Below, one piece after another: positions 3,001 to 59,189 of a stretch of DNA of 64,000 nucleotides; position 1 is the stretch's first letter; the number at the start of each line of letters is the position of its first letter. The translations under genes and the position numbers were made by a program. Source of the stretch: Bolinopsis microptera (Eukaryota; Ctenophora; Tentaculata; Lobata; Bolinopsidae); contig NC_087080.1 of NCBI RefSeq assembly GCF_026151205.1, positions 7,730,797 to 7,794,796 of the forward strand, given 5' to 3'. The notes beneath the pieces were generated by a model. That model saw nothing but the letters and a program-made list of their open reading frames with translations, made no database searches and was not told where the DNA came from.

Positions 3001-4069
3001 GCAAGACAGCTGAAGGCAACAGCTCATGTGTATCGTAGAGACCAGGTGATTAGTGTCAGGCCTCAACCTGTTACCTGTCCTCAGTGGGCCGCTGACCCTA
3101 ACTGGGTTCCTGAAAACCTGGTTAGTAACATTTCTTCAACAGTCGAATAGTTTGTTGAGAAGATCACATACTATTTGATAATAAAGCATTAAATCAATTT
3201 AAATTTACGAAACCTGTCTGCGAAATAAAGGGCCTGAAAACTTAAATGATAGTCTCTAATAACTTGGTCTCTGTTTCAGAACGACTCAACAGAGGAAAAG
3301 AAAGAGAAAGTAAGCAGACCCTCGATGTTAACATACGATCCCTCATCCCCAACAGCCACTACCTCTCATTTACTTGGACTCAGTGATGAGATCTTGAAAA
3401 CATTTAGGGATCCTAATCTTCTCAACAATACGGTACATAAACACAATTTGGTGATTGTTGAGTCAACTTCTTTGCAAAACAACGACTCCAGCAGTTAGTA
3501 ATAGTCAAGAATTGTAAATCTATTGATAAGCATGTGTTTTTGTTAGCTGCACGTCAGTGGCCTCACTATAACTTTTCCGACAGGATTCAACTCAAGGGAA
3601 CGAACCTAAGAAAGATGAGGTAATCGTGGACTCAACCCAGAAAAACAGTTCCTTGTACAACATCTACCCTTTAACAGGGGGCCTCTCTCAGACTACCGTC
3701 TCCACAGCAGACCCCTCAATACCCGTCTCAGCAACTCCCTCAACAGAAGTTATCAACTCTACAACAGTCACTCTCTCTGTACTACCCGTCAGTGGGAAGG
3801 ACGAGTCAAGTGATACCATGGTGACGAGCGAGCAGCAGATCACATCTCAGTTACCTGATCCCGCCCCACAGACCAGGGCAAGTTACGATAAGGACCTTCT
3901 GTCTTCGCTGTCTGAAGGGGACAAGGCACTGTTTGAGAGTGTTGTTGAAACACTGGCGGAATCTGATCCCAGGGTCAGGGATCTCAACCCAATAGATGTG
4001 ATTATGTCTCTCAACATGACATCTGATTCCCTGGGAGGGTTACTAGGTGGGTCTCAACATAACATCTGA
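1..4069 (+). CDS. Uncharacterised multi-exon protein, 3' part of gene (about 604 residues visible)
   Basis: Exons, joined in a consistent phase: 1-289 (reading from base 2; 5' end outside the window), 1795-1992, 2098-2326, 2516-2733, 2878-3120, 3280-3432 and 3584-4069 (stop). All introns are GT-AG. Exon 1 encodes an amphipathic coiled-coil-like stretch rich in Leu, Glu and Arg, followed by a polar linker. Exons 3-4 are basic, with YRELVRREAI, AIRTYWRSL and a long Arg/Lys run near KYNHRR. Exon 5 has the block VRRLPWSS followed by a downstream RPQP...PQWA block. I recall this pair from unnamed invertebrate proteins often found next to nucleic-acid-related genes, but cannot name the family. The last exon is Ser/Thr-rich and ends in a short helix-prone segment (LFESVVETLAE). 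The final residues are encoded by the first units of a minisatellite. A nuclear role is possible from the basic region, but this is inference only. The exon structure is much firmer than any function. Confidence 0.8.
612..1430 (-). CDS. Intronless gene for a secreted protein of 272 residues, nested in an intron
   Basis: A single open frame runs from ATG at 1430 to TAA at 612. This ATG has A at -3; the frame extends 10 codons further upstream but without an ATG. Residues 1-19 (MSVKNIVLLALLVAVVVES) form a clear signal peptide. The mature protein has no membrane span, almost no cysteine, and is rich in Gly, Asp, Tyr and Trp in short motifs such as WIDDSF, FNWVYTNNG and YYCYPLTG. It looks like a compact secreted globular domain. 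I do not recognise the family. The gene lies wholly inside the 290-1794 intron of the plus-strand gene and in the opposite direction, so it needs its own promoter to the right of 1430. No obvious TATA box was seen there. The absence of introns would fit a retroposed copy or a naturally intronless gene. Confidence 0.8.
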   Translation of the reverse strand: MSVKNIVLLALLVAVVVESKTIEKIERVQFKYWNLAMNLNPSDGHIMDYTTGWIDDSFIGTHSEALSKDYLNRFIWRHPVSYIAIVRHQDSEVDAVKVFRFKQGDRSLLSRFQAMDPGRDVVTEGGPIQESVSKNAQNMEDDPIFSVGGDLAFNWVYTNNGHRVVMTGGYLSPADVNDDKTRGLGNHYYCYPLTGVSKGPTSRTEVSTIAYAPANHWQGTDHGYGPQKDGPVYGNYAIYVSEDATSFPGPGYKLGLEVEVQNRLKFLESAEL

Positions 4070-4345
4070 TACCCTGGGAGCCGGGAGGGTTACTAGGTTG
4101 GTCTCAACGTGACATCTGATACCCTGGGACGGTTGCTAGGTGGGTCTCAATATGACATTTGATACCCTAGGAGGGTTGCTAGGTGGGTCTCAACATAACA
4201 TCTGATACCCTGGGGGGGGGGTTACTAGGTGAGTATCAACCTTCAAAGTGACATCTGATACCCTTGGACGGTTGCTAGGTGGGTCTCGATATGACATCTG
4301 ATACCCTGGGAGGGTTGCTAGGTGGGTCTCAACATGACATTTGAT
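4010..4345 (+). repeat. 43-bp minisatellite overlapping the end of a coding region
   Basis: About seven full units and one partial unit, with consensus pieces TCTCAACATGACATCTGATA and CCTGGGAGGGTTGCTAGGTG. Several units carry small insertions. The first unit and part of the second are translated as the C-terminus of the plus-strand gene (MTSDSLGGLLGG..., stop at 4067-4069). The remaining units form the 3' UTR. Confidence 0.9.
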
Positions 4346-5166: not shown

Positions 5167-8100
5167 TCATACCGAGGGATTGTGAGTCGGTTCATTTTCA
5201 GGATCAGGGTGTTGGTCAGTTACCGGGTTAATAACTGTGCCAGCCATCTCCCCCTCAGTAGTGGCTAAATTCTCCATCATTTCAACTTCCAGGCCCAAGA
5301 CCTCAAGTTGAACGTTCTGATCTATAGTGGCCGAATTTCTCACGAAATTCCCATCATGATCTTCAACAACAACGAAATCGTTCCCTTCTGGCTTCCTAAA
5401 AACTTCCGTGCCTACTGTGACTTTTCTACCGTCCTCGGCATCAATCTCAAACCCCAAAGTTTCTGCTGCATCAAGGGTTGAACTCTCGTCAAACTTTCCA
5501 TCATCTTCAAACACTTCGTATTTAATCTTATCTGACATCACGAATTCCTCAGTGTTGTTTGCTGTTTCCTGATCCTGCCTCGGACACACACAAGACACCG
5601 GTGAACTAACTTCCCGGCATAACTTACCATCAGGTCCTGTTGTAACCTCTCCCTCCTCCTCTAAAAATTGAAACTCCTTCTCTGCACATTCCATCATTGC
5701 ATGATCTGAGAGATCAGCGTAAACGTGCTTATCTGATCCCGAACTGGGGTGAGATTTATGATAGAATACAACTTACCTTGTAACTTGTGTCATACAAATA
5801 TAAAACCATGAACAACTGATGTAGACAGATGATGAGCTTGGAGGTTAAGCTTGTCAAATGCTTTATGCCCATTTAATTGTTGAAACTGAGCTCCCAATTA
5901 AATCAAATTAATACAATTTATTTTAATCTAAACCTGGAGGGATTGATGGTTTGCATCTCAACACAGATCGTGGCACTAGCTAGAGGGTTGGAGATGGTCA
6001 TACTGTGGTCGTGGCAGCCGGACATGGACAATTTAGTGGCATTTGTCCTTCCACTAGCACTCTTCCCTGTAGGCAGACGAAATGGTAAGATAGATTGAAT
6101 TTGAAGAAAATTTTGATACGATTCTATCCCTATGTTATATACAGGTTATATATAGGTTGTTAAAAAAGAAATAGATATTAGTTACCTTCAATTGAAAATT
6201 TCGTGTTATCTATCAATTTATATTTTGAGAATAAAATAGACTTCAAATCATAGCTGAAATGTCTAAAAAGTTACTTTACCTAGCGGACCTTTGTGAGCGG
6301 GAAGTGAGCCATGCGAGTTGGGAGGAGAGTTCTTCTTTTTCTTTATGCAGAAGAAAGCAGCCTCTCGGAGATCTTTGTTGAAGACAAAGTGAATTATCGG
6401 GTTCACCATCTGTGGGGTTGTTTGTCATGTTTTTAAACGAGAAATAAACCGAATACGATCGTTTTATCATTTTAATCTTCGGGAATATTGGAGGATGTAA
6501 AACTTACCGAGTTGAGAATGACAAGGATGACCAAACAGAAAGGATGTTAAACTAACCGAGTTGAGAATGACAAGGATGACCAAACAGAGAGGATGTAATA
6601 CTTACCGAGTTGAGAATGACAAGGATGACCAAACAGAGAGGATGTAAAACTTACCGAGTTGAGAATGACAAGGATGACCAAACAGAGAGGATGTAATACT
6701 TACCGAGTTGAGAATGACAAGGATGACCAAACAGAGAGGATGTAAAACTTACCGAATTTAGAATGACAAGGATGACCAAACAGAGAGGATGTAAAACTTA
6801 CCGAGTTGAGAATGACAAGGATGACCAAACAGAGAGGATGTAAAACTTACCGAGTTGAGAATGACAAGGATGACCAAACAGAGAGGATGTAATACTTACC
6901 GAGTTGAGAATGACAAGGATGGCCAAACAGAGAGGATGTAAAACTTACCGAGTTGAGAATGACTAGGATGACCAAACAGAGAGGATGTAAAACTTACCGA
7001 GTTGAGAATGACAAGGATGACCAAACAGAGAGGACCGTATGCTGTGAAGAGAAAGTACTCCTCGGAGTCCTTCTCGTTCTCTTGGTTTCTGAACATGTAG
7101 TAGGAGACGTGTGGCGTTATGCCGAACCAGGCTGCTGGTAACTCCACTGAAATCAAGGCAATGTACGTTTAGTTTTCCTTATGACTTTGTTAATCCGTAT
7201 AAGACTAGGATATACAATGAATTCACCGAGTTGTTTAATCTTTAATTATTCATACCGAGCGAATCCCACGTTGAGTAGAATATAAAAATTAGAATAAAAA
7301 CTATTGCCAGTCGGCGCCAAACTGTCAGCAATAGCAAACCGTAAGGTCCTCGCCCCTCGGTTATAAATCAGATTATCACCCACAAGAAATTCTCGCACAT
7401 TAAAAAAAAGTTAAAATTCTGAAAAATCTTTCAAAGGTTTGCCGCGTACTCTGACAATTGTTTTTGGCACAGTCGAACAAACCGTAATTATTAACAACAA
7501 ACATTCACCCTTGTTTGTAGCGTGAACTTGCATGTAGAACCCGACCAGCCAGAAAGAGTAGGTGATAGTGAAGCTGGAGAGGAGGCCCAGTACTGTTCTC
7601 TCTGCTCTTACTGTTGCTTTGTCAATCTGATCCGCGTTAGACTGGCCCGCACTACCTGAGTTAGGGTATATGTTTTTATAACTTGCCCACTTTAACTTTA
7701 AGTCGCGGAATTGAATTTTTCAGGAACAGATATTTTTGACGTTTTAAACTTAGTTTTATGATTGGAGTCAGACTCAGTTCTTGGTTATGTTTTATGGTGA
7801 GAGATATGGTTTGGGATAACATCACGGTTGTGTCAACGTCTAGAGAAGTCATATGACAATATACAGATGGATAAGAAGTCATGCCACCATATGAACTTCT
7901 AGTAGTAGTAAGTTATATCTAGGACTTGTACCAAGAAGTATTATAAAACGCAAAGAAATGTGAAGAAATCATAGTTGGGCAGTTAAGCAACATTTTGTAA
8001 AAAGTTCCTCGAATTTGTTACATTTTTTCAGTTTACAATTCGAGAAAATTCGGCATCTAAAATTTTCCAATTCACTAAGACGTAGTAGTTCACTAAATGT

Positions 8101-11942: not shown

Positions 11943-14900
11943 GCAGGTACTTTTTTGATGGAACATAACCCTAAAAGTACCCGAGGGGTGGGTAGGTGTT
12001 TTTTTGAAATTTTCGAAAAGTATCATGGTACTGTTTTTGTCCCAAAAAAAAGAAGGGGTACCCCAAAACATGATTATAAAAGTATATTGTACTTTTTCAT
12101 TACCAAAATGTTAGAATTGGGGTTTTCTGAAATTATACCTAGCTTGTTGTAGATCTAATTGGGTTTTTCTGAAATTATACCTATCTTGTTGTAGGTCTAA
12201 TTGGGTTTTTCTGAAATTATACCTAACTTGTTGTAGATCTAATTGGGGTTTTCTGAAATTGTACCTAGCTCGGTGTAGATCTAATTGGGTTTTTCTGAAA
12301 TTATACCTAGCTTGTTGTAGATCTAATTGGGTTTTTCTGCAATTTCTGTAGCGGAAAACCTTAAAAAACCTTAAATTTGCACTTTATTGCATTACGTTTG
12401 TCCAAACTTTCGCACTGTGGACCTTAAAAAACCTTGAATTTAACTGTTTTGGACCTTAAAAATGGGTCAAAAGGGGCCTTAAAAGACGTGAAAAAACCTT
12501 TAAAATGACTTTCAAAAATGCCGGCAACCCTGCTCACAAGTCACATCGAGGTGTCAGAACATCTTCAGTTTAGGAAAACTGATGAACAGGAATTTTTTGA
12601 AAAAAAAAGGAGGGGGTGGGGGTCATTCGGGAAAATTTCGAAAAGTACCGTGGTACTTTTTTGTTATTCCATTCGTGAAGGAGGTGGGTGGGTGGTTATT
12701 TTCAGAAATTTCGAAAAGTCAGCATAGGTTCCATCAAAAAAGCCCCCCCCCCCCCCCCCCCCCCCCCCCCACTACAAATCTGTATCTTTCATCAATAATA
12801 ATACAGAATTAATTTAACGTAGTTCGAGGAGATCTGAATCCTCCTCATGTCCAAGAGTGGCCGTTTTCGTGTATCAAATATGATGTGACATAAATCATAG
12901 CATGATAATTTGCTTCAAGCAACACGAATACTACAAGAATACATTATAAAATCATAAACTAGATATTATAATATAAATATAAGAAGCCAAGAAAAATAAT
13001 GGCGTATCAAATTACATCGATGTATGTGACAATGACGAATGATATAATATGTATAGTAATTACTAATTAGCACCTACCTTACCTTAATTTTCTTACCGGA
13101 CTTTATCTAAACGGATATTAACAATGAATTGTACGCTGGATCGAGGCCCTAGCGTTCATTTTAATGTCCGTTCAAATAAAGTCTGTCCGTTTACATCAAC
13201 ATTTTGCACTCTTCATACATGGATATGAAATAAATTGGAATTTCGCATGCGAAATTCCAATTTATTTTGTAATTTTGAATATTTATATGCAGTTGACCGA
13301 CAAAATGGTTAAACGTTGATATCTTGCCAAATGCCAATGCTACGATCTCTTTATCACACAAATTTAGGTCGAACAGAATTTCGATTGTTGTGTTCAACGT
13401 GTGCGCAGCATTTTCTGATCTCACATTCAGAAAATTGAGCGAACAAATTATAAGTACAATGCAATACAAATATTTGTCTGCTCCACGATGAATACTCTGT
13501 ACCTTTGAGATGATTAAAGATACTATTTTTTCCATTAATAACATGCGTCGGTGGTTGAGTGGTACAATTCTCGCCTGCCACGCGGGAGGCCCGGGTTCGA
13601 TTCCCGGCCGACGCATATCTTTTATCTGCTTCAACTTTTCTACTGTCTTTTACGATCACTTTAAAATGCGGAGCCCTAAGTTTTGATCGCGTTGATCCTA
13701 AATTTTCATATGATTGAGTTGGTTCTTATATTCAAAGAAAGGATATCTACAATATCATGCCCAGTAACAATTACACTAATTCTCTACCAGGAATTCTTTA
13801 CCTAGTAAAATATCCGGTATAATTAGTGTATCAACAAAAACACTGATCATACATTGGTGAGGTCACGAAAGAAACATTCCGGCCTTATCCTATGTAAATA
13901 TTCATCTAATCTAATACCACTCTGCTGCTTCCTTGTTTCTATTTGTTTGCAGCTATAAGCCAGGCTCCCTGTATCACCGAGGCCCTTGATACATGGTGTA
14001 CAATGTACATTATGGCATTGTACATTGTTCATACCGCGAAGTGTATTTTTTGTTTCGAAGAATTTTCGTGGAATATCCTACAATGTGAAGTACAGAACTT
14101 ATCCAGTTCGCAAATTAGTCCCATAAATAAATAATGAAATGGCGGAACGTTAATGTATATGTGTTATGGACTCTGATCACTGATTGCACTGATCGTCTGA
14201 TCAGTGATGTGATCAATGATCAGTGATGTACTCGTAGATACACTAGTTACTTAGTTAGGTACAATGTCCCGTTAGTTGTTATTCGTTAAATTGTTTTCCT
14301 TTATTCCCGGACCATGGACCTTATAATTTGAAGCTGAAAGGTAACACTTTTGTTGTTTGGATCACGTACACTATTAGTGTGTGTAATTGCAGCACAATAG
14401 TTGAAAGTGGTGCTAACCAAATGGTGAAATATCACCGCGGCTGGGTTATTGGGAAAGTTTCCACAAAATAACTTGCCGGTTATTGTTCTCACGCCGTTAC
14501 ACTGAGCACATCATCATAATTAAATTCTGTATCTTATATGGATGGCTTACTTGAGTCCATAAAGGATGCTGCAAAATCGTCAATTGGTGTCATCAGACAC
14601 AGGAAACGTAATCGCAGCGACGATGATGAGGTGAAAAACTTATCTAGCCAGCGTTACTTGTTGAGACAGCAGCTTAATGATAACCAGTCTTTAGACAGAA
14701 CCTCACTTAGATCATCTATTAACTGCCTCACCAATCAGATCAAGCAGAGACTTTCTAACATACGATCAGCTGCTGCTGATGCTATCTGTAATACCATCAG
14801 TTCAACAACAGATAGTAAGAAAATGTTTGAAGCTGTTCGAACCCTGAACTTACCTAAAAGTAAAGCCCCTTCTAGTATTGGTGTTCATGATGAGCAAGGG

Positions 14901-17900
14901 TGCAATATTGCAACAGACACTGGTAAAGCTGCCGTAGTTGCTAAGTACCTTGAGCAACAACTTACTCGTGATGAAGCACCTTTAGAACCTTTTGTAGGAC
15001 CTCCTCGCCCACTAGTTAAGCCATTCACTAGTGAAGAAATCGGATCAGCTGCTAGAAGTCTCAAAAATGGTCGAGCTAACGGCCCAGATGGGATTCCTAA
15101 TGAGCTTCTCAAGTATTCTACTGGATCAGTACACAGACGTTTTGCAGACATTATCAATAGAAGCTTCGAGACCAATTCCTACCTTGACCCCATTGGACAG
15201 GCAAACATTACCCCCTTACAGAAGCCAAATAAGCCCATTGGTCCAGTGAAGAATCTACGACCCCTCACTCTCTCAAATGCTGTTAGAAAGATTCTTTCAA
15301 TGGCAACCTTGAAGAGAATTGAGAATAAAGTCAATGCCTTCACTGGTCCATGGCAATGTGCTTACAAGCAGGGTAGATCATGTGCTGACATTGTATGGTG
15401 CCAGCGTGTGATGTTATCAGTTGTCCAGAGGAAGAGGTGGGAATACCATCGTATGGGGATCGACATGTCTAGTGCCTTTGACACTATACGACGATCTACC
15501 ATCCTCGATCTTCTTGTTGAGTGTGGCTGTGATGATGACGAAGTCCGTTTGGTAAGACTTTTGCTTTCCAACACCAAGCTCAAAGTCAACATCAACGGTA
15601 CACTGTCTGCTGAATTCCAGAGTTTTCTCGGTGCATTCCAAGGTGACTGTCTGTCTGGATGCTTGTTCACACTTGTCTTAGCGGGTTCCTTGCGTGACCT
15701 CCGTAACAGGCTTGAAACTGCAACGAATAGGCCTAACCCACCTATCACCGATATTGGTCTTCCACTTGACAGTGAGTATGCTGATGATATCGACTTCAAT
15801 GATGAAGATGAAGACAATTTGAGGGAGCTGTTGCCTATTGCAACAGAAGTCCTTAAAGATTGGAATCTCTTCGTTAACGAAGACAAAACTGATTTCACTC
15901 ATGTGTACTTAGCTGAAAAGGGAGCTAAAGACGATCAGGGTAAGCCAATTGCAGGGAACGAGCTCTGGAGAAAGAGTATCACGCTTGGCTCCATGCTTTG
16001 TAGCAAGGAGGACATCTCTAGAAGGATATGTCTGGGATATGCCGCGTTTAACAAATACAAGAAAGCTTGGAACCATAAGATCCCTCTGAGCAAGAGGCTT
16101 CTGTTGTATGAGGCTCTGGTAGTATCCGTCTTAATGTACAATTCATCTTGCTGGGCTGCCCCTAAATCAGTATTGGAAAAACTAGATATTGCTCACAGAC
16201 GTCATCTGCGATCAATTTTGAATTACAAATACCCTCACATCATCTCCAACAAGAACTTGTATAAACGCTGCAATAGCGAACCATTGTCAGCTAAAGTGGC
16301 TCGTAGTCGGTGGAGGATGCTCGGACATGTACTGCGTGGGCCTACAGATGGCCCAGCCTATTCGTCGCTTGTTTTTGCTGTCAACACCTTACAGCTTCAA
16401 GGGCGGCGTGGAAGATCGCAGTCAAACCTTTTCTCACTGATTCTACACGACCTTAGTGTCCGAAAATTATCGTTAAATAATTTATGTGATTTGAACTGAT
16501 TAACGTTAATTGCTCAGAATAGAGTTAAATGGAGAAGTATGCAGATTGCATGACTTTTGTTTGAGAAAGATTAGGGGACAGAAATGTTTACTTTGTTTAC
16601 TATCTGTTTCTTAGAGCTTTTGTTTATATATATATATATATATATATATCTTATACTTGCTACTTCGGTCTTCGTCTCAAATCTACTAACCTCAGCTTTA
16701 CGTTTTAATACTTTCAACACTACTATATAACAAATAATTTGAGGAGGTTCTCTCAAGATGATTTTTATATCGAAGATTTCAAGAGCCTAAACTGTGTATG
16801 ATTCGCCTCTCCAAACAAATCTAAAGTTATTTTAAGATAATGTGATCGCAAATCTCGATGTTATGTATGTCATGAGATTCTAGATATTAGATCTATGAGA
16901 TGACGAATTAAATTTTTGTACAAATTGTGTCCTTTTTACGCACCGGTTCTATTATTATTATTAAGGGACGTGATTCTTGTTAAGTAAATTATAACGGTAA
17001 AGTAGTGCATGTTGTGTAATGTATTATTATTTAGGGTATTTTGGAGAGAGTTTAGGCTTTAATGGAACATGGTTTATTTATTATATGCATTATTATTATT
17101 ATTTGTAGTTTCGGGTATATATATAGAACCAATTATATAGAACCAATGCTTTTATTGCAGTTAATGTTCAACTTTACGGAAACTTGCATTTACTGTTAAT
17201 TGTCAAAACTTTAAGGCTCATTATTTGAAAATTACTTATTGTAGTCTGTTGGATGTCAGCTCTTTGCGCACCTGACCAGCCAGCCCCTCTGATTGGTCCC
17301 CGCGAGTGATCGCGAGTACAGGGTGGCTGCTATCGGGAAGCCCATTGGCCGGGTCGCGTGACGCGTGACGCGTGTCGCGTGGTGCGACACTGATGCGTTG
17401 CACCGTCGCGTATTGTAGCGTGGCAGTTCTGAGTGTAAATCTGAAGAGCGCCTTTGACTAATCTCAATTGTTAAGTTTTCGAGCTAACAGTAACAGCTTA
17501 ATTTGTCTTAGTTATAATCTAATTAATCCGAGCGATAATCTATAGACTTCTTCGAGTGAGTCTATAATCGAGTCAATTGTTAAAAGTTTTGCTCAGAAAT
17601 TCTTTTCTATGTTGTAACTTTTTGTATTTCTTATTTCCATTTGATAATTCTTCTCTGTCAATGTCACTAAACTAAACTTGTTTCACTTATAAATATAACA
17701 TTAGGTACGCCCTGCCGTCCGTGTTACATAACCACAGCTCAAATAGTGATATGTAATACTTAGCCCTTGAAACTCTGTTTTCTTTATCTGTTTAATTACT
17801 CGCCACCTTGCCTCTGTTCAGATTGTGGTGAACGTGCCTTTGCATATGAAACATTTTTAGTTGTTATATATAACAACCAAAAATCCATCTCTCATATTTA

Positions 17901-23900: not shown

Positions 23901-25830
23901 ACAATCAGTAACCACTCACTATATTTTCACTCACATTGTGTACCAGTACAGGGTGTTGCAAGACTCGTGTCCAAATTTTGAATGGCTCTCAAAATCTAAA
24001 AAATGAGACAAACGGTCTAATTTTTGTTTTAAATTGTAGACAAATTATTACATTTCAAAATACATAACAAAAATAAATCTAATATTTTAACAATTTTTCG
24101 AACCAAGCCCCCTTTCTGCATAGAAGGTTTTGAACCCTCGGAAGCATATTGTCTATTGCACGTTTTACCATGTCAATTTTTAACTTTTTAGCCTCCCTTC
24201 TGATATTGTTTTTTAGCTCATCTACTGTTTGTGGGACTGGGTCTGAATAGACACGTTCTTTCAGACAGCCCCACAAAAAGAAATCGGCCGGATTCAGGTC
24301 AGGGCTGTAGGGAGGCCAGCTGAACTCAGCTTTCCTCGATATCAGTCTTTCCCCAAAATGCTCCTTCAGCCAAGCCAAACTTTCGTGCGAACAGTGTGGA
24401 GGGGCCCCGTCTTGTTGGAATATACAGGAATCAAGTATTTTTTTCCTTTTAAGTACTGGGATAACTTTTCCACGCAACATAGCAATGTAATTTGCTGTCC
24501 TTATCGTCTCTGCCTTCTCTTCTTCATTCTCGAAAAAGTGGGGTCCGAAGACACCATGGTAACTGAGGCCCATCCAAACAGTCACCTTTTCTCTGGTTTT
24601 TGGACCTTCCACGGTGGCATAGGGTTGCTTATCTGACCAGATTCGGGCATTCTGAGTATTAACCCACCCTGATAGTTGGAAGTGAGCTTCATCGGAGACA
24701 ATAAGGTTCTTCAAAAAGTTTTGATCAGACTCAATTTTGCTAGCAAATTGCTTGGCAAAGTCCACTCTTTGCTGCTTGTTGGCTGCCGTCTGTTCTTGCA
24801 ACATCTTAATTTTGTATGGGTATTTGCCCAACTCCTTTCTCAAGATCCTCCAAACGGTTGTGGTAGATAGTTTAGTTCTCTTAGCGATGTTCCTTACAGA
24901 ACGTCGAGGGCTTTTGTCAAGGATTTGGTTGACTTTTTTGATGTTTTTCTCATTAACTGCCGTTTTTGCACCCCCACCTGTTGGTTTCCTTCTGAGAGTC
25001 AATTCTCTCTCAAATTTCGTCACTTGTCGCTGAATAGTCCTAAGATGAATTTTCCTGCCTGCATTACCGTATTTCTTTGAAAGTGCCCTCCTAGCAGCAG
25101 TCCAACTACTTCCGTTGACATAAAAAAGCTTGACCATGTCTACTCTCATTTCGTCTGATATGCCAGATTTTGACATTTTTTCGAAGAAAATTTCGAAAGG
25201 ATACAAATTTGCGAAAAGATGAGTTTTGAAACGAATTTGTGAGAGATAACTAAAATGTAAGGTATAACCAGCATTTTAAAACTGATTGCATCTAATTTTG
25301 CTCCTTCATAAAATTAAAAATTAAAATTTTAAATTTGGACACGAGTCTCGAAACACCCTGTATACACCATCTCACATGTATTGTATCTTTTACCTTATCA
25401 TCTGTTATCACTTACATCTTAAATCATCTGTTATCACTGTACATGTCATTCCATCACACGATCACAATCACGTACTTGCTGTTTAGTGGATGTTTTAAGT
25501 TTATTGAATAGCAGATCGAGTAGTGTTGTATATATATAGATTTTGATTCTAATTTTAGTCGAGTATTTGAAAAATTTGTTGTCGTTTAGCCATTTTTGAT
25601 TAATAAATTTTTGAGACAGTTTTCTCACATATTTACCAATTTTGTCAGCATGAATAAGAAGTTGTTACTTTGAAACGTCGTTTATCCTAACAGTGCAATA
25701 TCATTTGTCGCAAATCAGAATAATCAGAAACTATTTGGAAAAACCCAAAAACTGTCTACTTACCGATAGTCATATCAGCCTCAATTATTCTGTAGTCTTT
25801 CTGATTTGTATCGTTTGCCGCAGGGATCAT
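5167..25830 (-). CDS. Rhodopsin-class (class A) GPCR, complete, 12 coding exons, 655 residues
   Basis: Coding exons in transcript order: 25764-25830 (ATG at 25830), 23067-23141, 22317-22442, 21948-22119, 11436-11583, 10412-10509, 9571-9716, 7509-7655, 6998-7146, 6280-6409, 5934-6066, 5167-5743 (TGA). Lengths sum to 1968 nt with all phases matching. TM1 about 24-47 (Asn in LNVLVF), TM2 about 62-84 (LSVSD, conserved Asp), TM3 about 103-134 with the extracellular Cys in FRICVW, TM4 about 148-170, extracellular loop 2 Cys in GICAII, TM5 about 197-222, a 70-residue third inner loop partly encoded by exon 7, TM6 with SFWLVGF, and TM7 ending NSMVNPIIHF, the NPxxY equivalent. The DRY motif is replaced by CRT (CCRTFAV). 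The tail of about 270 residues is acidic and Ser/Thr-rich. The N-terminus is short (about 23 residues) with one NDT glycosylation site and no signal peptide. The ligand cannot be told from the sequence. The gene spans 20.7 kb; intron 4 alone is 10.4 kb. Confidence 0.92.
6504..7034 (-). repeat. 49-bp tandem array that duplicates an exon end plus its 5' splice site
   Basis: Eleven units start at 6504, 6553, 6602 and so on to 6994, exactly 49 bp apart. On the gene (minus) strand each unit is 37 bp identical or nearly identical to the 3' end of the GPCR TM7 exon, ending in CTCAACTCG, followed by 12 bp of intron beginning GTAAGT. The unit at 6994 is the real exon end (exon 6998-7146). The other ten lie in the following intron, 6410-6997, and fill most of it. 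Nine of the ten keep a good GTAAGT or GTAAGT-like donor; the unit at 6553 has GTTAGT. Two sub-variants (GTAAAAC and GTAATAC on the plus strand) partly alternate along the array. Confidence 0.95.
7968..8342. mobile_element. Possible MITE-like element with short inverted ends
   Basis: CATAGTTGGG at the left recurs as CCCAACTATG at the right, and the regions just inside share a second inverted match (gaactttttacaaa-like against gaacttttataaaa). No clear target-site duplication was found. It lies in GPCR intron 7. Confidence 0.35.
10921..11065. mobile_element. 145-bp hairpin MITE-like element
   Basis: Imperfect inverted arms of about 45 bp: GGATTCTGGTGGGAAGGCGT at the left is mirrored by the complement of a closely similar block ending at 11065. 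Both arms carry TGACACGTGACA, so the element brings two CACGTG E-boxes, and its centre has ATTGG sequences. It lies in GPCR intron 5. No convincing target duplication was seen. Confidence 0.65.
11905..12770. mobile_element. Element bounded by inverted homopolymer tracts (G37 at left, C28 at right)
   Basis: The left end is 37 consecutive G followed by a stretch containing CTTTTTTGATGGAAC (from about 11948). The right end reads, on the opposite strand, 28 G followed by CTTTTTTGATGGAAC. Further inside, both ends share CGAAAAGT-type sequence in inverted order. It therefore behaves like a MITE whose terminal repeats begin with a poly(G) run. The interior holds a 42-bp tandem repeat. It lies in GPCR intron 4. 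Open frames here, including one ending in poly-Pro, are by-products of the homopolymers. Confidence 0.6.
12125..12340. repeat. 42-bp tandem repeat, about five copies
   Basis: The unit begins TTCTGAAATTATACCTAGCT and continues TGTTGTAGATCTAATTGGGT. It sits inside the G/C-tract-bounded element. Confidence 0.85.
13228..13267. repeat. 40-bp perfect palindrome
   Basis: Two 20-bp arms meet at GCATGC (centre 13247/13248) with no spacer; the left arm starts AAATAAATTGG. It lies about 280 bp upstream of the tRNA-Gly gene, in GPCR intron 4. Confidence 0.9.
13545..13615 (+). tRNA. tRNA-Gly(GCC)
   Basis: A 71-nt cloverleaf. The acceptor stem GCGTCGG pairs perfectly with CCGACGC and is followed by discriminator A. 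The D-arm region is GTGGTTGAGTGGTACAA, the anticodon loop in CTGCCAC gives GCC, and the T arm GCCCGGGTTCGATTCCCGG carries a consensus box B (GGTTCGATTCC). A box A match (TGGTTGAGTGG) is also present, so the gene has its internal pol III promoter. A T-rich run follows at about 13619. It lies in GPCR intron 4 in the opposite direction to that gene. No intron and no encoded CCA. Confidence 0.97.
14538..16499 (+). CDS. Non-LTR (LINE-type) reverse transcriptase ORF, 653 residues, no endonuclease
   Basis: One open frame from ATG at 14538 (an in-frame TAA lies at 14517) to TGA at 16497-16499. The RT domain covers roughly residues 165-450: ANGPDGIP (fingers), a polymerase Asp in GIDMSSAFD, FQGDCLSG, and the catalytic YADD at residues 414-417 (15777-15788), all in the normal order and intact. 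The C-terminal part has the RRHLRSILN and WRMLGHVLRG blocks common downstream of LINE RT domains. About 120 residues precede the RT domain, with no apurinic endonuclease or restriction-like endonuclease and no zinc-knuckle ORF upstream. It is therefore 5'-truncated or belongs to an unusual lineage. No stops or frameshifts across 653 codons suggest recent insertion. It lies antisense in GPCR intron 4. No poly(A) tail or target duplication could be fixed; a (TA)n tract follows at 16624. Confidence 0.9.
   Translation: MDGLLESIKDAAKSSIGVIRHRKRNRSDDDEVKNLSSQRYLLRQQLNDNQSLDRTSLRSSINCLTNQIKQRLSNIRSAAADAICNTISSTTDSKKMFEAVRTLNLPKSKAPSSIGVHDEQGCNIATDTGKAAVVAKYLEQQLTRDEAPLEPFVGPPRPLVKPFTSEEIGSAARSLKNGRANGPDGIPNELLKYSTGSVHRRFADIINRSFETNSYLDPIGQANITPLQKPNKPIGPVKNLRPLTLSNAVRKILSMATLKRIENKVNAFTGPWQCAYKQGRSCADIVWCQRVMLSVVQRKRWEYHRMGIDMSSAFDTIRRSTILDLLVECGCDDDEVRLVRLLLSNTKLKVNINGTLSAEFQSFLGAFQGDCLSGCLFTLVLAGSLRDLRNRLETATNRPNPPITDIGLPLDSEYADDIDFNDEDEDNLRELLPIATEVLKDWNLFVNEDKTDFTHVYLAEKGAKDDQGKPIAGNELWRKSITLGSMLCSKEDISRRICLGYAAFNKYKKAWNHKIPLSKRLLLYEALVVSVLMYNSSCWAAPKSVLEKLDIAHRRHLRSILNYKYPHIISNKNLYKRCNSEPLSAKVARSRWRMLGHVLRGPTDGPAYSSLVFAVNTLQLQGRRGRSQSNLFSLILHDLSVRKLSLNNLCDLN
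16624..16650. repeat. (TA)n microsatellite
   Basis: Alternating TA run about 125 bp after the reverse transcriptase stop. It could be the 3' tail region of the element, but this is not proven. Confidence 0.8.
17260..17425. promoter_or_regulatory. CpG-rich island with two CCAAT-type boxes, in an intron
   Basis: A GC- and CpG-rich patch in a strongly AT-rich intron. It contains GATTGGTCC near 17291 and CATTGGCC near 17343 (inverted CCAAT), then a run of CGCGTGACGCGTGACGCGTG-type repeats. It looks like a promoter or a transposon 5' region, but no ORF clearly starts beside it. It lies 0.8 kb beyond the reverse transcriptase ORF and 0.5 kb before a tandem duplication. Confidence 0.5.
17890..18715. 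repeat. Tandem duplication, two copies of about 405-420 bp
   Basis: Copy 1 starts at 17890 and copy 2 at 18295, both with TCTCATATTTAAAACTATTG. The copies differ by a few substitutions and one short insertion. Each has an internal run of GTTACGGTAATGG and related ACATGTGTTA(A/T)GGTAAT steps. Confidence 0.9.
19826..20450 (+). repeat. Diverged solo copy of a block found in both arms of the foldback element
   Basis: Starts with TAGTACAG...ATCCGTCTGAAAAAATCGAT and continues through CAACTTTTCCAAACTTTTCC to AATCACCAATATTTGTAGTT. It matches 53570-54160 and, inverted, 55900-56490. An internal 20-22 bp step (GTGTAGTGGAGAAAAA) is amplified here but not in the arms. It lies in GPCR intron 4. Confidence 0.85.
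23949..25360 (-). mobile_element. Complete Tc1/mariner-superfamily transposon, 1412 bp
   Basis: Terminal inverted repeats of 30 bp at 23949-23978 and 25331-25360 start CAGGGTGTT and share AGACTCGTGTCCAAATTT, with 28 of 30 bases matching. The element is flanked on both sides by TA (23947-23948 and 25361-25362), the superfamily's target duplication. One full transposase ORF fills the interior. It sits in GPCR intron 1 (23142-25763), in the same direction as that gene. Confidence 0.95.
24079..25176 (-). CDS. Tc1/mariner-superfamily transposase, intact, 365 residues
   Basis: ATG at 25176, stop at 24079; the frame is open a little further upstream but without ATG. The N-terminal 110 residues hold two helix-turn-helix-like DNA-binding parts: RVDMVKLFYVNGSSWTAARR at about 11-30, and RSVRNIAKRTKLSTTTVWRI at about 92-111, linked by a basic stretch. 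The catalytic triad is Asp162 in VSDEAHF, Asp256 in QQDGAPPH and Asp298 in SPDLNPADFFLWG, with 41 residues between the second and third, a DD41D arrangement. DD41D is known from minor mariner-related clades and differs from DD34D mariner and DD34E Tc1. The frame is unbroken and the ends are paired, so the copy may still be able to move; activity is inference. Confidence 0.95.
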   Translation of the reverse strand: MSKSGISDEMRVDMVKLFYVNGSSWTAARRALSKKYGNAGRKIHLRTIQRQVTKFERELTLRRKPTGGGAKTAVNEKNIKKVNQILDKSPRRSVRNIAKRTKLSTTTVWRILRKELGKYPYKIKMLQEQTAANKQQRVDFAKQFASKIESDQNFLKNLIVSDEAHFQLSGWVNTQNARIWSDKQPYATVEGPKTREKVTVWMGLSYHGVFGPHFFENEEEKAETIRTANYIAMLRGKVIPVLKRKKILDSCIFQQDGAPPHCSHESLAWLKEHFGERLISRKAEFSWPPYSPDLNPADFFLWGCLKERVYSDPVPQTVDELKNNIRREAKKLKIDMVKRAIDNMLPRVQNLLCRKGAWFEKLLKY

Positions 25831-44600: not shown

Positions 44601-47600
44601 TACACAGCCATTTTACGGATCAGAAGCTTTATAACTTTATAACAATAAATACGAAGTTGTTTTTTCATGCTGGAAATTAAAGGCGATTCTCAGTTAATTA
44701 TTTTTTAAATCACACAGGAAGTGGGAAGATACAAATAGGTTTCAGAGCAAGCAATGAATACGGTGACTCAGCAATATCACAAAAGTCGCATGAACTGGAG
44801 ATTTTACCTGATACCCCACGCTCATCAGTAACCAAGTAAATATTTATCTAAATAGAAACAGAGGTCGTCGTCGAACAAACGTTTCATTGCTTGAACCAAT
44901 GCTTCGCCGAACATGATAAAATATTCTGGAAACAAATGGATCCTACTTTATGAGGAATCCTCCTGAAAATCTTATTGTTTTTCTTAGACACTAGACAGTA
45001 ATCATTAAACAGTAATGAACGATGCTTTGAATTAAGTTCCCGAAGTTTTTATTTAGAATTTCGCCTAGACCAGCAACAAATCTGAGGACAAATCAAAACA
45101 GAGTAAAAACGTCATTTGTAAATTAAATCTGTTTCACAGGATTGAGAGAGACGAGCAAAAGGCAGGGAACGCCTCCTCCACCCTTAGTCTTAAGTTTAAT
45201 GAAATACCTGGAGTTGATGAGTATGAAGTGAGGTTGTTCAGTGCAGATGGAACCCTCCAGAAAGTTATCAAGGATATTACTGAAAACGGAATTACAGTGA
45301 ACGAGTTGAAGCCGGGGACCGGCTATTTTATCGAAGTTAGAGGTATAAACTAAGAAACTGTACATACTCATAGTCAAACTAATAATAATCGATAAAACCA
45401 GAAAAAAAAACCCTAAAGAGAACGTTTCTTTCAACAAATATCGCAATATCGTAAGTACACGCCAAAAACCGGCCCAACTATCACCTCCCCACACCAGGTG
45501 TTAACATTGTGGACGGGAACAGAGTTTACGGCCCCAACAGTCTAGCTAGCAGCTTCACTACAGCACCTCATGAGCTGCCAGCACCTTCTAATCTTCAGGG
45601 AACACCGGTGATTATTATCTAACCTGATACCACTGAAAACTGTATTACTCTGCCGTGGTTTCGTAATACGGCTGGACTTCGTGATACATATATTAACTGA
45701 TATATCGATTAATTGGAGATAAAATGATTTTAGAGCTATAGAGGTGTCATTAAAACACCTGTTATTTCAAACTTGATAGTGACGGTAACAAAAAATTGGT
45801 TATTTCAAAATCAGTGATGCTTCAAATGGAAATCGTGTAATGTTCAATCCTATTGTCTGCGCAAAGCTATATTTTGGCGCCCGGTGCTAATGTTAACTTC
45901 ATCACAGTTGGAAAGTGACGGTAACAAGTCAGCAGTGCTTCTTACCTGGGACACGGCCAAAGTAAGCTCGGAGTTTGTGGACTATTACCTGATGAATATC
46001 AAACGAGCGGGGGAGGACCAATCAAAGGTTCGGTGCTTATCAATAACACTTTTAATAACACTTTTGATAACACTTTTAATCACACTTTTAATCACACTTT
46101 TAATAACACTTTTGATAACACTTTTAATAACACTTTCAATAACACTTTTGATAATACTTTTAATGACACTTTTGATAACACTTTTAATAACACCTTTAAT
46201 AACACTTTTAATAACACTTTTAATAACACTTTTAATAACACTTTTAATAACACTTTCAATAACTCTTTCAATTTAGAGTGATGTGTATTAATTTAGTTTT
46301 GTGTTGCCGTGTATAATCATGGTTATCAGTTATGACTCATAATACTACCCTATACTATTATATAGCAACCCTTATAAATTGAAAATTACAGTTACGCTAC
46401 GTCTACTTTTAGCGATAAATGTCCCACAGTGACCATTTCGAACAGTCGTTATTTTTAAACCCTTGTTATTTATTAACCCTTCTTCGTCCTAAAGGATACA
46501 GATAATCTGACAAGAAAGAAGAGGCAAGCTCTGCAGACCTACCAAGCTGTGAGAATCCCATTCGGAGCCCGAGCTAAAGTTATCAAGAACCTGGATGGTG
46601 GCACACGATACGAGTTTATCCTGCAAAGTTACTCGTCTGATTTCGGGGAAAGTAAGTTAGAAGTGGGACATTTTATTTTCGATGAATGCAGAACCCCACA
46701 AAACAAAGATATGCAATTTCTGACCATCCATCCTTTACCAATCATAGCCAAGACCTGAGTTCCAACAAATCCAATTCAGAACGTCTTTCTCTAAAACTGT
46801 CCTCCCCCAATTAGGCGAGCCAGCGAAGGTGACAGTACAAACTCTAACGGCAGGACCGTGTCCTTACACCAAACCAGAGTTGTACCCTCCTCGGAACTGC
46901 CCTCCTAGAGTTTCTCTAGACAGAAATTATCTTTACCTCAAGTTCTATTTCGGTCAGTCGAGTTATTTGAGTTATTTAAACGCTTGATCGTAGATTTTTT
47001 GGGCAGATAAAGGTTATGAATAAAGAAACAGGATGCAAACCTGTTTACCTCCTTACCTATTATGTCTATACGTAACTTGAAACTGACATCTTACCTCTAA
47101 CTTCTAAACCTACCACATTTTCCACTTGGCATGAGTTTAACTCTCCGAATGACATGTTAACACCTCTACTGCCAATTTATGAATAAACTAAATTGTTCAG
47201 ATTGCTACAGCGGTAGAGGACTGGATTTTATTGGTAAGCATAGCTCAACACAAAAAGGAGAATGTGCTGCTTGGACAGAAGAAAATCTTAAACAGTTCGA
47301 CTCAAAAAACCTGGTAATTTTAATAAAACACACAAAAATGTATATCATCAATCATTACCTTACGTCAACCTGAATTCAGAATCAAGAAAAAGATTCAGCA
47401 ACATTTTTAAAGCGATTTTTCATATTATTATTCTTTACTGTTTTGAAAATCTCTGACAATTAACTGACAATTGTTTCCTCCAGAACCTTCCAGAAATAGG
47501 GACGAACTACTGTCGTAACATAAAGAACAGTATGAAAGACAGCAGAACACATCACGATAAACCCTGGTGTTATCTACCAGACGGTTCCAACGAAACTTGT

Positions 47601-55194: not shown

Positions 55195-55243
55195 GGTTAG
55201 GGTTAGGGTTAAGGTTAGGGTTAGGGTTAGAGTTAGGGTTAAT
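55195..55243 (+). repeat. Interstitial telomere-type repeat (TTAGGG)n, about eight units
   Basis: GGTTAGGGTTAGGGTTAAGG followed by further TTAGGG units with two single-base variants. It lies in the foldback loop and is bracketed by the perfect inverted pair GACAACTGAACCCAATT (55145-55161) and AATTGGGTTCAGTTGTC (55255-55271). Confidence 0.95.

Positions 55244-55284: not shown

Positions 55285-59189
<3,905 letters not shown>

Follow-up and report, generated by a model that had tools for sequence, protein, structure and literature searches.

Why does an intron begin with eleven nearly identical 5' splice sites, and does the gene that carries them gain anything from the additional ten? The question is raised by a receptor-like gene on the minus strand of a 64,000-nucleotide stretch of the ctenophore Bolinopsis microptera (contig NC_087080.1, positions 7,730,797 to 7,794,796; the whole stretch is called the window here), in which the 3' end of one exon is repeated in tandem together with its donor. 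With a probability of roughly 0.7, we read this array as a mostly passive minisatellite of the "mirage" type, lying over an exon–intron boundary. As such, it adds one more instance to the boundary-copying repeats already known from lancelets and people.

Anatomy of the array and of its host gene

The tandem array spans positions 6491–7034 of the window and features a period of 49 bp, 11.1 copies, and 95% matches, with a score of 1018 as judged by Tandem Repeats Finder. When the surrounding 5 kb were shuffled 200 times under a first-order Markov model, the top score was 59, which excludes a chance origin. Read unit by unit on the minus strand, the array consists of 11 units of 49 bp in exact register, running from 7034 down to 6496, and each unit is composed of the final 37 exon bases and the initial 12 intron bases. 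In unit 0 (6986–7034), the 37 nt of the true exon end are followed, from the true donor at 6997 on, by 12 nt of the intron. The ten extra units (6496–6985), delimited by Tandem Repeats Finder, unit reading, and substitution count, carry donors at 6948, 6899, 6850, 6801, 6752, 6703, 6654, 6605, 6556, and 6507. The donor reads TCG/GTAAGT in 10 of the 11 units; the remaining one, at 6556 in unit 6593–6545, is GTTAGT. An earlier note on this DNA had described ten extra copies of exon end and donor at an exact 49-bp period, which both methods bear out; its eleven near-identical donors are ten plus this weakened copy. The place of the array had been given correctly, and the boundaries around it are adjusted here: the exon is 7146–6998 (149 nt), the G of the first donor is at 6997, and the next exon starts at 6409 instead of 6410. 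The intron measures 588 nt, or 98 nt once the ten extra units are subtracted, and its single-copy 3' part (6410–6495, 86 nt) ends in one acceptor (...accccacag). At the DNA level, a search of all 264.65 Mb of the genome, with very common words skipped, matched the array locus as its sole hit, and a dispersed repeat was rejected on this ground.

The host gene is represented by four minus-strand exons, 7641–7509, 7146–6998, 6409–6280, and 6066–5934, which all join in phase. The first of these (133 nt) is TM6-like (TM, transmembrane segment), ends in AAGG/GTGAAT, and was delimited by its open frame, acceptor, donor, and phase, the last agreeing with the exon that follows. The exon with the copied 3' end (149 nt) lies between the acceptor ttgatttcag and the donor TCG/GTAAGT and holds the start of a putative TM7 (...LCLVILVILNS). 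The next exon (130 nt, placed by in silico splicing) reads MVNPIIHFVFNKDLREAAFF... and contributes the NPxxY-like part, in which NPIIH is present; the one after that (133 nt) was placed by frame reading and in silico splicing. Taken together, ...LCLVILVILNS and MVNPIIHFVFNKDLREAAFF presumably resemble a TM7 with an NPxxY-type motif. A Pfam search of the receptor pieces gave zero matches. Against PDB chains, 78 matches were obtained at E <= 10, and the best 60 of the 78 are all G protein-coupled receptors (GPCRs); the best E value is only 0.026, so that no match is significant alone. The receptor also matches four open frames of the same genome weakly (E 0.02–0.17), three of which match 7tm_1 (best 1e-10), two of them above the curated cut-off. 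The copied exon is likely the TM7 exon of a class A GPCR, and the host gene likely a class A GPCR—an assignment that falls short of proof.

Splicing outcome, age, and origin of the extra units

Spliced in silico, the first donor leads into an open frame through the next exons. From extra donor 1, a frameshift results, with a stop downstream at codon 112 of the joined stretch. The stop is at codon 83, just within the next exon, for extra donor 2 and at codon 82, within the array, for extra donors 3–10. The full receptor frame is obtained from the first donor only, and the expectation that any later donor would lose the frame of the NPxxY-like exon is upheld. The earlier note had further expected a stop within two units on reading from the exon into the array. 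A stop does occur, but the first one in frame starts 99 nt beyond the first donor, slightly over two units.

Against the exon copy, the ten extra units carry 10 substitutions in 490 bases, and a single one of them falls in a donor hexamer, where 1.2 are expected (p 0.65); the array thus shows no sign of selection keeping its extra donors. In 20 of 20 cases, a shuffled sequence folds more than the RNA of the array does, and a function as an RNA hairpin was rejected for this reason. A 5-nt direct repeat, TCCTC, marks the limits of the ancestral unit, with its left copy at 7030–7034 and its right copy at 6491–6495, directly beyond the last unit; the chance of such flanking at both ends is approximately 0.005. 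This direct repeat fits slippage or microhomology-mediated duplication. The creation of the intron itself by duplication was tried as an explanation and rejected, since the acceptor is single, lies 86 nt past the array, and is not copied in the unit. The published route of intron gain in which AGGT is duplicated in tandem likewise copies splice signals (PMC2812944); unlike in that process, the intron in the window predates its array, and its acceptor remains uncopied.

From the sequence, the following course may be proposed. Slippage or microhomology-mediated duplication between the TCCTC copies 49 bp apart, one exonic and one intronic, would have copied the final 37 exon bases along with the donor, and later slippage or unequal exchange would have raised the number of units to eleven. 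Because the exon and the first donor are intact, as is the 3' part of the intron that holds the only acceptor, all of the added DNA would be intronic provided that the first donor is used. By comparison with published relatives, nearly all productive mRNA would probably come from the first donor, and a small leak to later donors would give frameshifted or early-stopped transcripts that are probably decayed. The copy number probably varies among individuals, with array length drifting. The array is probably an accident that is mostly tolerated rather than selected.

Related arrays in the genome and in other animals

Boundary arrays are also present elsewhere in this genome. Three copies of GTAAGT at a spacing of 20–50 occur 8582 and 9063 times genome-wide, compared with 1701 and 1456 for the reversed word, and a strict donor word yields 538 triplets compared with 0 for its reversal. 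Among the matches listed (100 of these 538, which is the scope of all figures on 20 arrays), at least 20 donor-word arrays were found, and the flanks of all 20 were read. Coding exons were called by eye, the criteria being an open frame, an acceptor, and phase in the flanks. In this way, 10 of the 20 arrays were judged to lie on the end of a coding exon with its donor (L042, L059, L061, L064, L066, L069, L072, L074, L075, and L076) and one on an acceptor; the position of the other nine was judged to be elsewhere or unclear (L044, L052, L054, L055, L058, L073, L077, L078, and L080). L054 and L055 are near-identical neighbours, and L077 is similar to L074. The acceptor case, L079 (G000:C8:7268400-7269500), consists of ten 37-bp units that copy the acceptor TTTCAG/GT before a likely coding exon—a mirror image of the arrangement in the window, at a 3' splice site.

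Domain or PDB matches support four of the ten exons: WD40 (E 1.7e-5) and sulfatase (E 0.0017) in the Pfam search set, a dynein heavy chain exon (E 3.6e-7), and an MFAP1 exon (E 5e-7). For the remaining six, the call is based on an open frame, an acceptor, and phase. The domain searches covered seven of the ten exon-end arrays (L042, L061, L064, L069, L072, L075, and L076). No relevant Pfam match was obtained with the dynein, MFAP1, L064, and L076 queries, nor with a CDK and an FN3-like query described below, and L061 reached only E 0.1. Beyond the 20, C1 holds an exon of the sushi type (Pfam E 0.0026, under the curated cut-off), which is followed by approximately 44 units of 54 bp, then by a short intron end and another sushi-like exon. 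In a CDK exon (L002, G000:C1:217513 on; PDB E 1e-12), the minisatellite starts a few bases inside the intron. Arrays longer than the one in the window, of up to 2.4 kb, occur elsewhere in the genome. With the window array and the sushi case included, 12 exon-end arrays were tabulated. All 12 have an in-frame stop 1–99 nt beyond the first donor, and in two of them the period is a multiple of 3. These arrays look like introns rather than repeated coding exons.

The reversed words suggested a clear excess of donor-word arrays, an idea that a permuted word did not sustain and that was abandoned: it yields 264 and 76 triplets (340) and at least five arrays on C1 among the matches listed, compared with five for the donor word, so there is no clear excess of donor arrays. 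An acceptor word occurs in 367 triplets, its reversal in 93. For the comparison of donor with acceptor arrays, the 100 matches listed come from four arrays, for the most part from a related pair on C3, and allow no conclusion. These two (G000:C3:10522198-10525883 and C3:10725660-10727316) are long 47-bp arrays approximately 200 kb apart that contain TTTTCAGG in each unit. The simplest view is that arrays arise at many places and persist where they copy a donor downstream of an exon end that is intact.

Further repeats and open frames were observed in the window. A second array (4009–4345, plus strand; 43 bp, 7.4 copies) starts at the end of the open frame 3572–4066; its units contain CTAG/GTGGGT-like words, and it may be a boundary array or a repeated C-terminus. 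A 12-bp array of 19 copies (46042–46272, plus strand) lies approximately 6 nt past the likely donor region of an open frame, near the 5' end of an intron. We take this open frame to be FN3-like; it has no Pfam match. A 659-aa open frame (14520–16496, plus strand) contains a reverse transcriptase domain (Pfam RVT_1, E 1.6e-20), and a 398-aa frame (24082–25275, minus strand) presumably resembles a mariner/Tc1-type transposase. A GGAGAG repeat of approximately 520 bp (57721–58241) comprises 87 copies at 99%, and the telomere-like motif GGTTAG is repeated 7.8 times at 55195–55241.

In lancelets, Adh3 and the globins BflGb6 and BflGb9 carry "mirage" minisatellites across exon–intron boundaries, troponin C and PGBD5 being also named; these are unstable in length, also somatically, leave regular splicing undisturbed, and have been suggested to be shared generally within one animal group (PMC3087553, PMC3902484). 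Like them, the window array spans an exon–intron boundary, here with 37 exon and 12 intron bases in 11 units, and repeats a splice signal in many units, here GTAAGT in 10 of 11. For the lancelet arrays, length instability and normal splicing are demonstrated, whereas the window array is known from the sequence of one assembly. Mirages were described in cephalochordates; in sequence searches of the present genome, COX1 and the GFP and STING families had no match, and the control genomes of the GFP and STING searches were without a match too. The human CBS repeat, a 31-bp variable number tandem repeat (VNTR) at exon 13/intron 13, is named c.1444_1467+7(16_21), that is, by its name, 24 exon and 7 intron bases in 16–21 copies (PMC2630376). 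It has the same anatomy as the window array, an exon end and an intron start with the donor, and differs from it in that polymorphism and an effect are reported: enzyme activity drops as the repeat number rises (PMC5188458). The VNTR in intron 18 of ABCA7 includes the exon 18 donor, and its 25-bp unit starts at the donor GT and contains no exon bases (PMC5954066), whereas the window array starts 37 nt inside the exon; the donor GT is repeated per unit in both. In ABCA7, retention of one unit leads to a frameshift and amounts to 2 ± 1%, independent of VNTR length, exon 19 skipping grows with VNTR length, and the altered transcripts together exceed the normal one in some brain samples (PMC5954066). 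The minisatellite of human IFI6 (6-16) resembles the window array in its many splice donors, and two of its downstream units are truly used as donors (PMC4526556).

Competing explanations and meaning of the array

Several observations weigh against a passive mirage. The use of later units in IFI6 speaks against the first donor prevailing as a general rule, and our confidence was lowered from 0.75 to 0.7 on its account; the fall of CBS activity with repeat number points the same way, as does the surplus of donor-word triplets over the reversed words. Two long arrays elsewhere in the genome, which had been found by their donors, retain an unaltered donor hexamer in every unit scored, 43 of 43 and 30 of 30 (p 0.074 and 0.021 by site). 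Counted by polymorphic column, the better unit because copies share changes, the same arrays give 0/6 compared with 7/48 and 0/6 compared with 5/38 (p 0.46 for the latter). The by-eye assignment of the other arrays to coding exons is a further weakness. In a functional alternative, the extra donors would act as decoys: by binding the U1 small nuclear ribonucleoprotein (U1 snRNP), they would draw it away from the true donor in competition, and the copy number would set the level of full-length receptor. The identical donors in 10 of 11 units, the intact donors of the two long arrays, and the low folding of the array RNA, which leaves donors unhidden in structure, agree with such tuning, as do the effects of repeat length on CBS and on ABCA7 exon 19 and the use of downstream units in IFI6. 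Opposed to it are the donor hexamers of the window array, which mutate at the expected rate, the presence of the same structure on unrelated genes of this genome, the undisturbed splicing of lancelet mirages, and the length-independent unit retention in ABCA7. We consider this alternative unlikely, and the decoy or tuning role put forward in the earlier note finds no support so far, as the extra donors mutate like the rest of the unit and the structure recurs on unrelated genes. Its further suggestion, a copy-number polymorphism that affects gene output, has a published analogy in the CBS and ABCA7 VNTRs and may apply here in that sense. A wider form of the tuning idea holds that boundary-copying minisatellites are genome-wide, copy-number-variable splice rheostats, each unit adding a U1 site and shifting the productive share of mRNA; it is very doubtful. 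If it were true, individuals would differ at many genes, including this receptor, and the intact donors of the two long arrays would reflect selection.

The start of arrays could also be favoured by the 5' splice sites themselves, through AAGT/AGT microhomology or transcription-coupled breakage. GTAAGT triplets exceed those of the reversed word approximately five- to six-fold, and the strict word has no reversed counterpart at all; the sulfatase, L076, and WD40 units hold only 2–3 intron bases and have their edge inside the donor, with an AGT/AAGT match by eye; and the CDK array starts close behind its exon. But the permuted word gives as many C1 arrays as the donor word among the matches listed, acceptor-side arrays such as L079 exist as well, and the arrays had been selected by the donor word, so that a donor-linked mutational process appears improbable. 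An error of assembly, either in the array or in its length, has a precedent in a lancelet mirage that was aberrantly assembled in a draft genome (PMC3087553); here, the units carry distinct private substitutions, longer arrays exist elsewhere in the genome, and the contigs are chromosome-sized, which makes an artefact highly improbable. Least probable, to the point of being nearly negligible, is the use of the units as alternative coding sequence that would give receptor isoforms. The 99-nt open stretch beyond the first donor would permit it, but the period is no multiple of 3, and no extra donor is open through the next two exons. Repeated coding isoforms were rejected for the lack of an open frame from any extra donor and for the stops after the first donor in all tabulated arrays.

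Read as a mostly passive mirage-type minisatellite, the window array alone is one more repeat spanning a boundary. The 12 exon-end arrays together form a natural series of genes with approximately 4 to 44 near-identical donors in a near-identical local context. From this series one could learn how a cell selects one of several equal 5' splice sites and whether further copies reduce output, as is reported for CBS. Mirages were first described in lancelets, and the series suggests that they may be frequent in the genome of another animal too.
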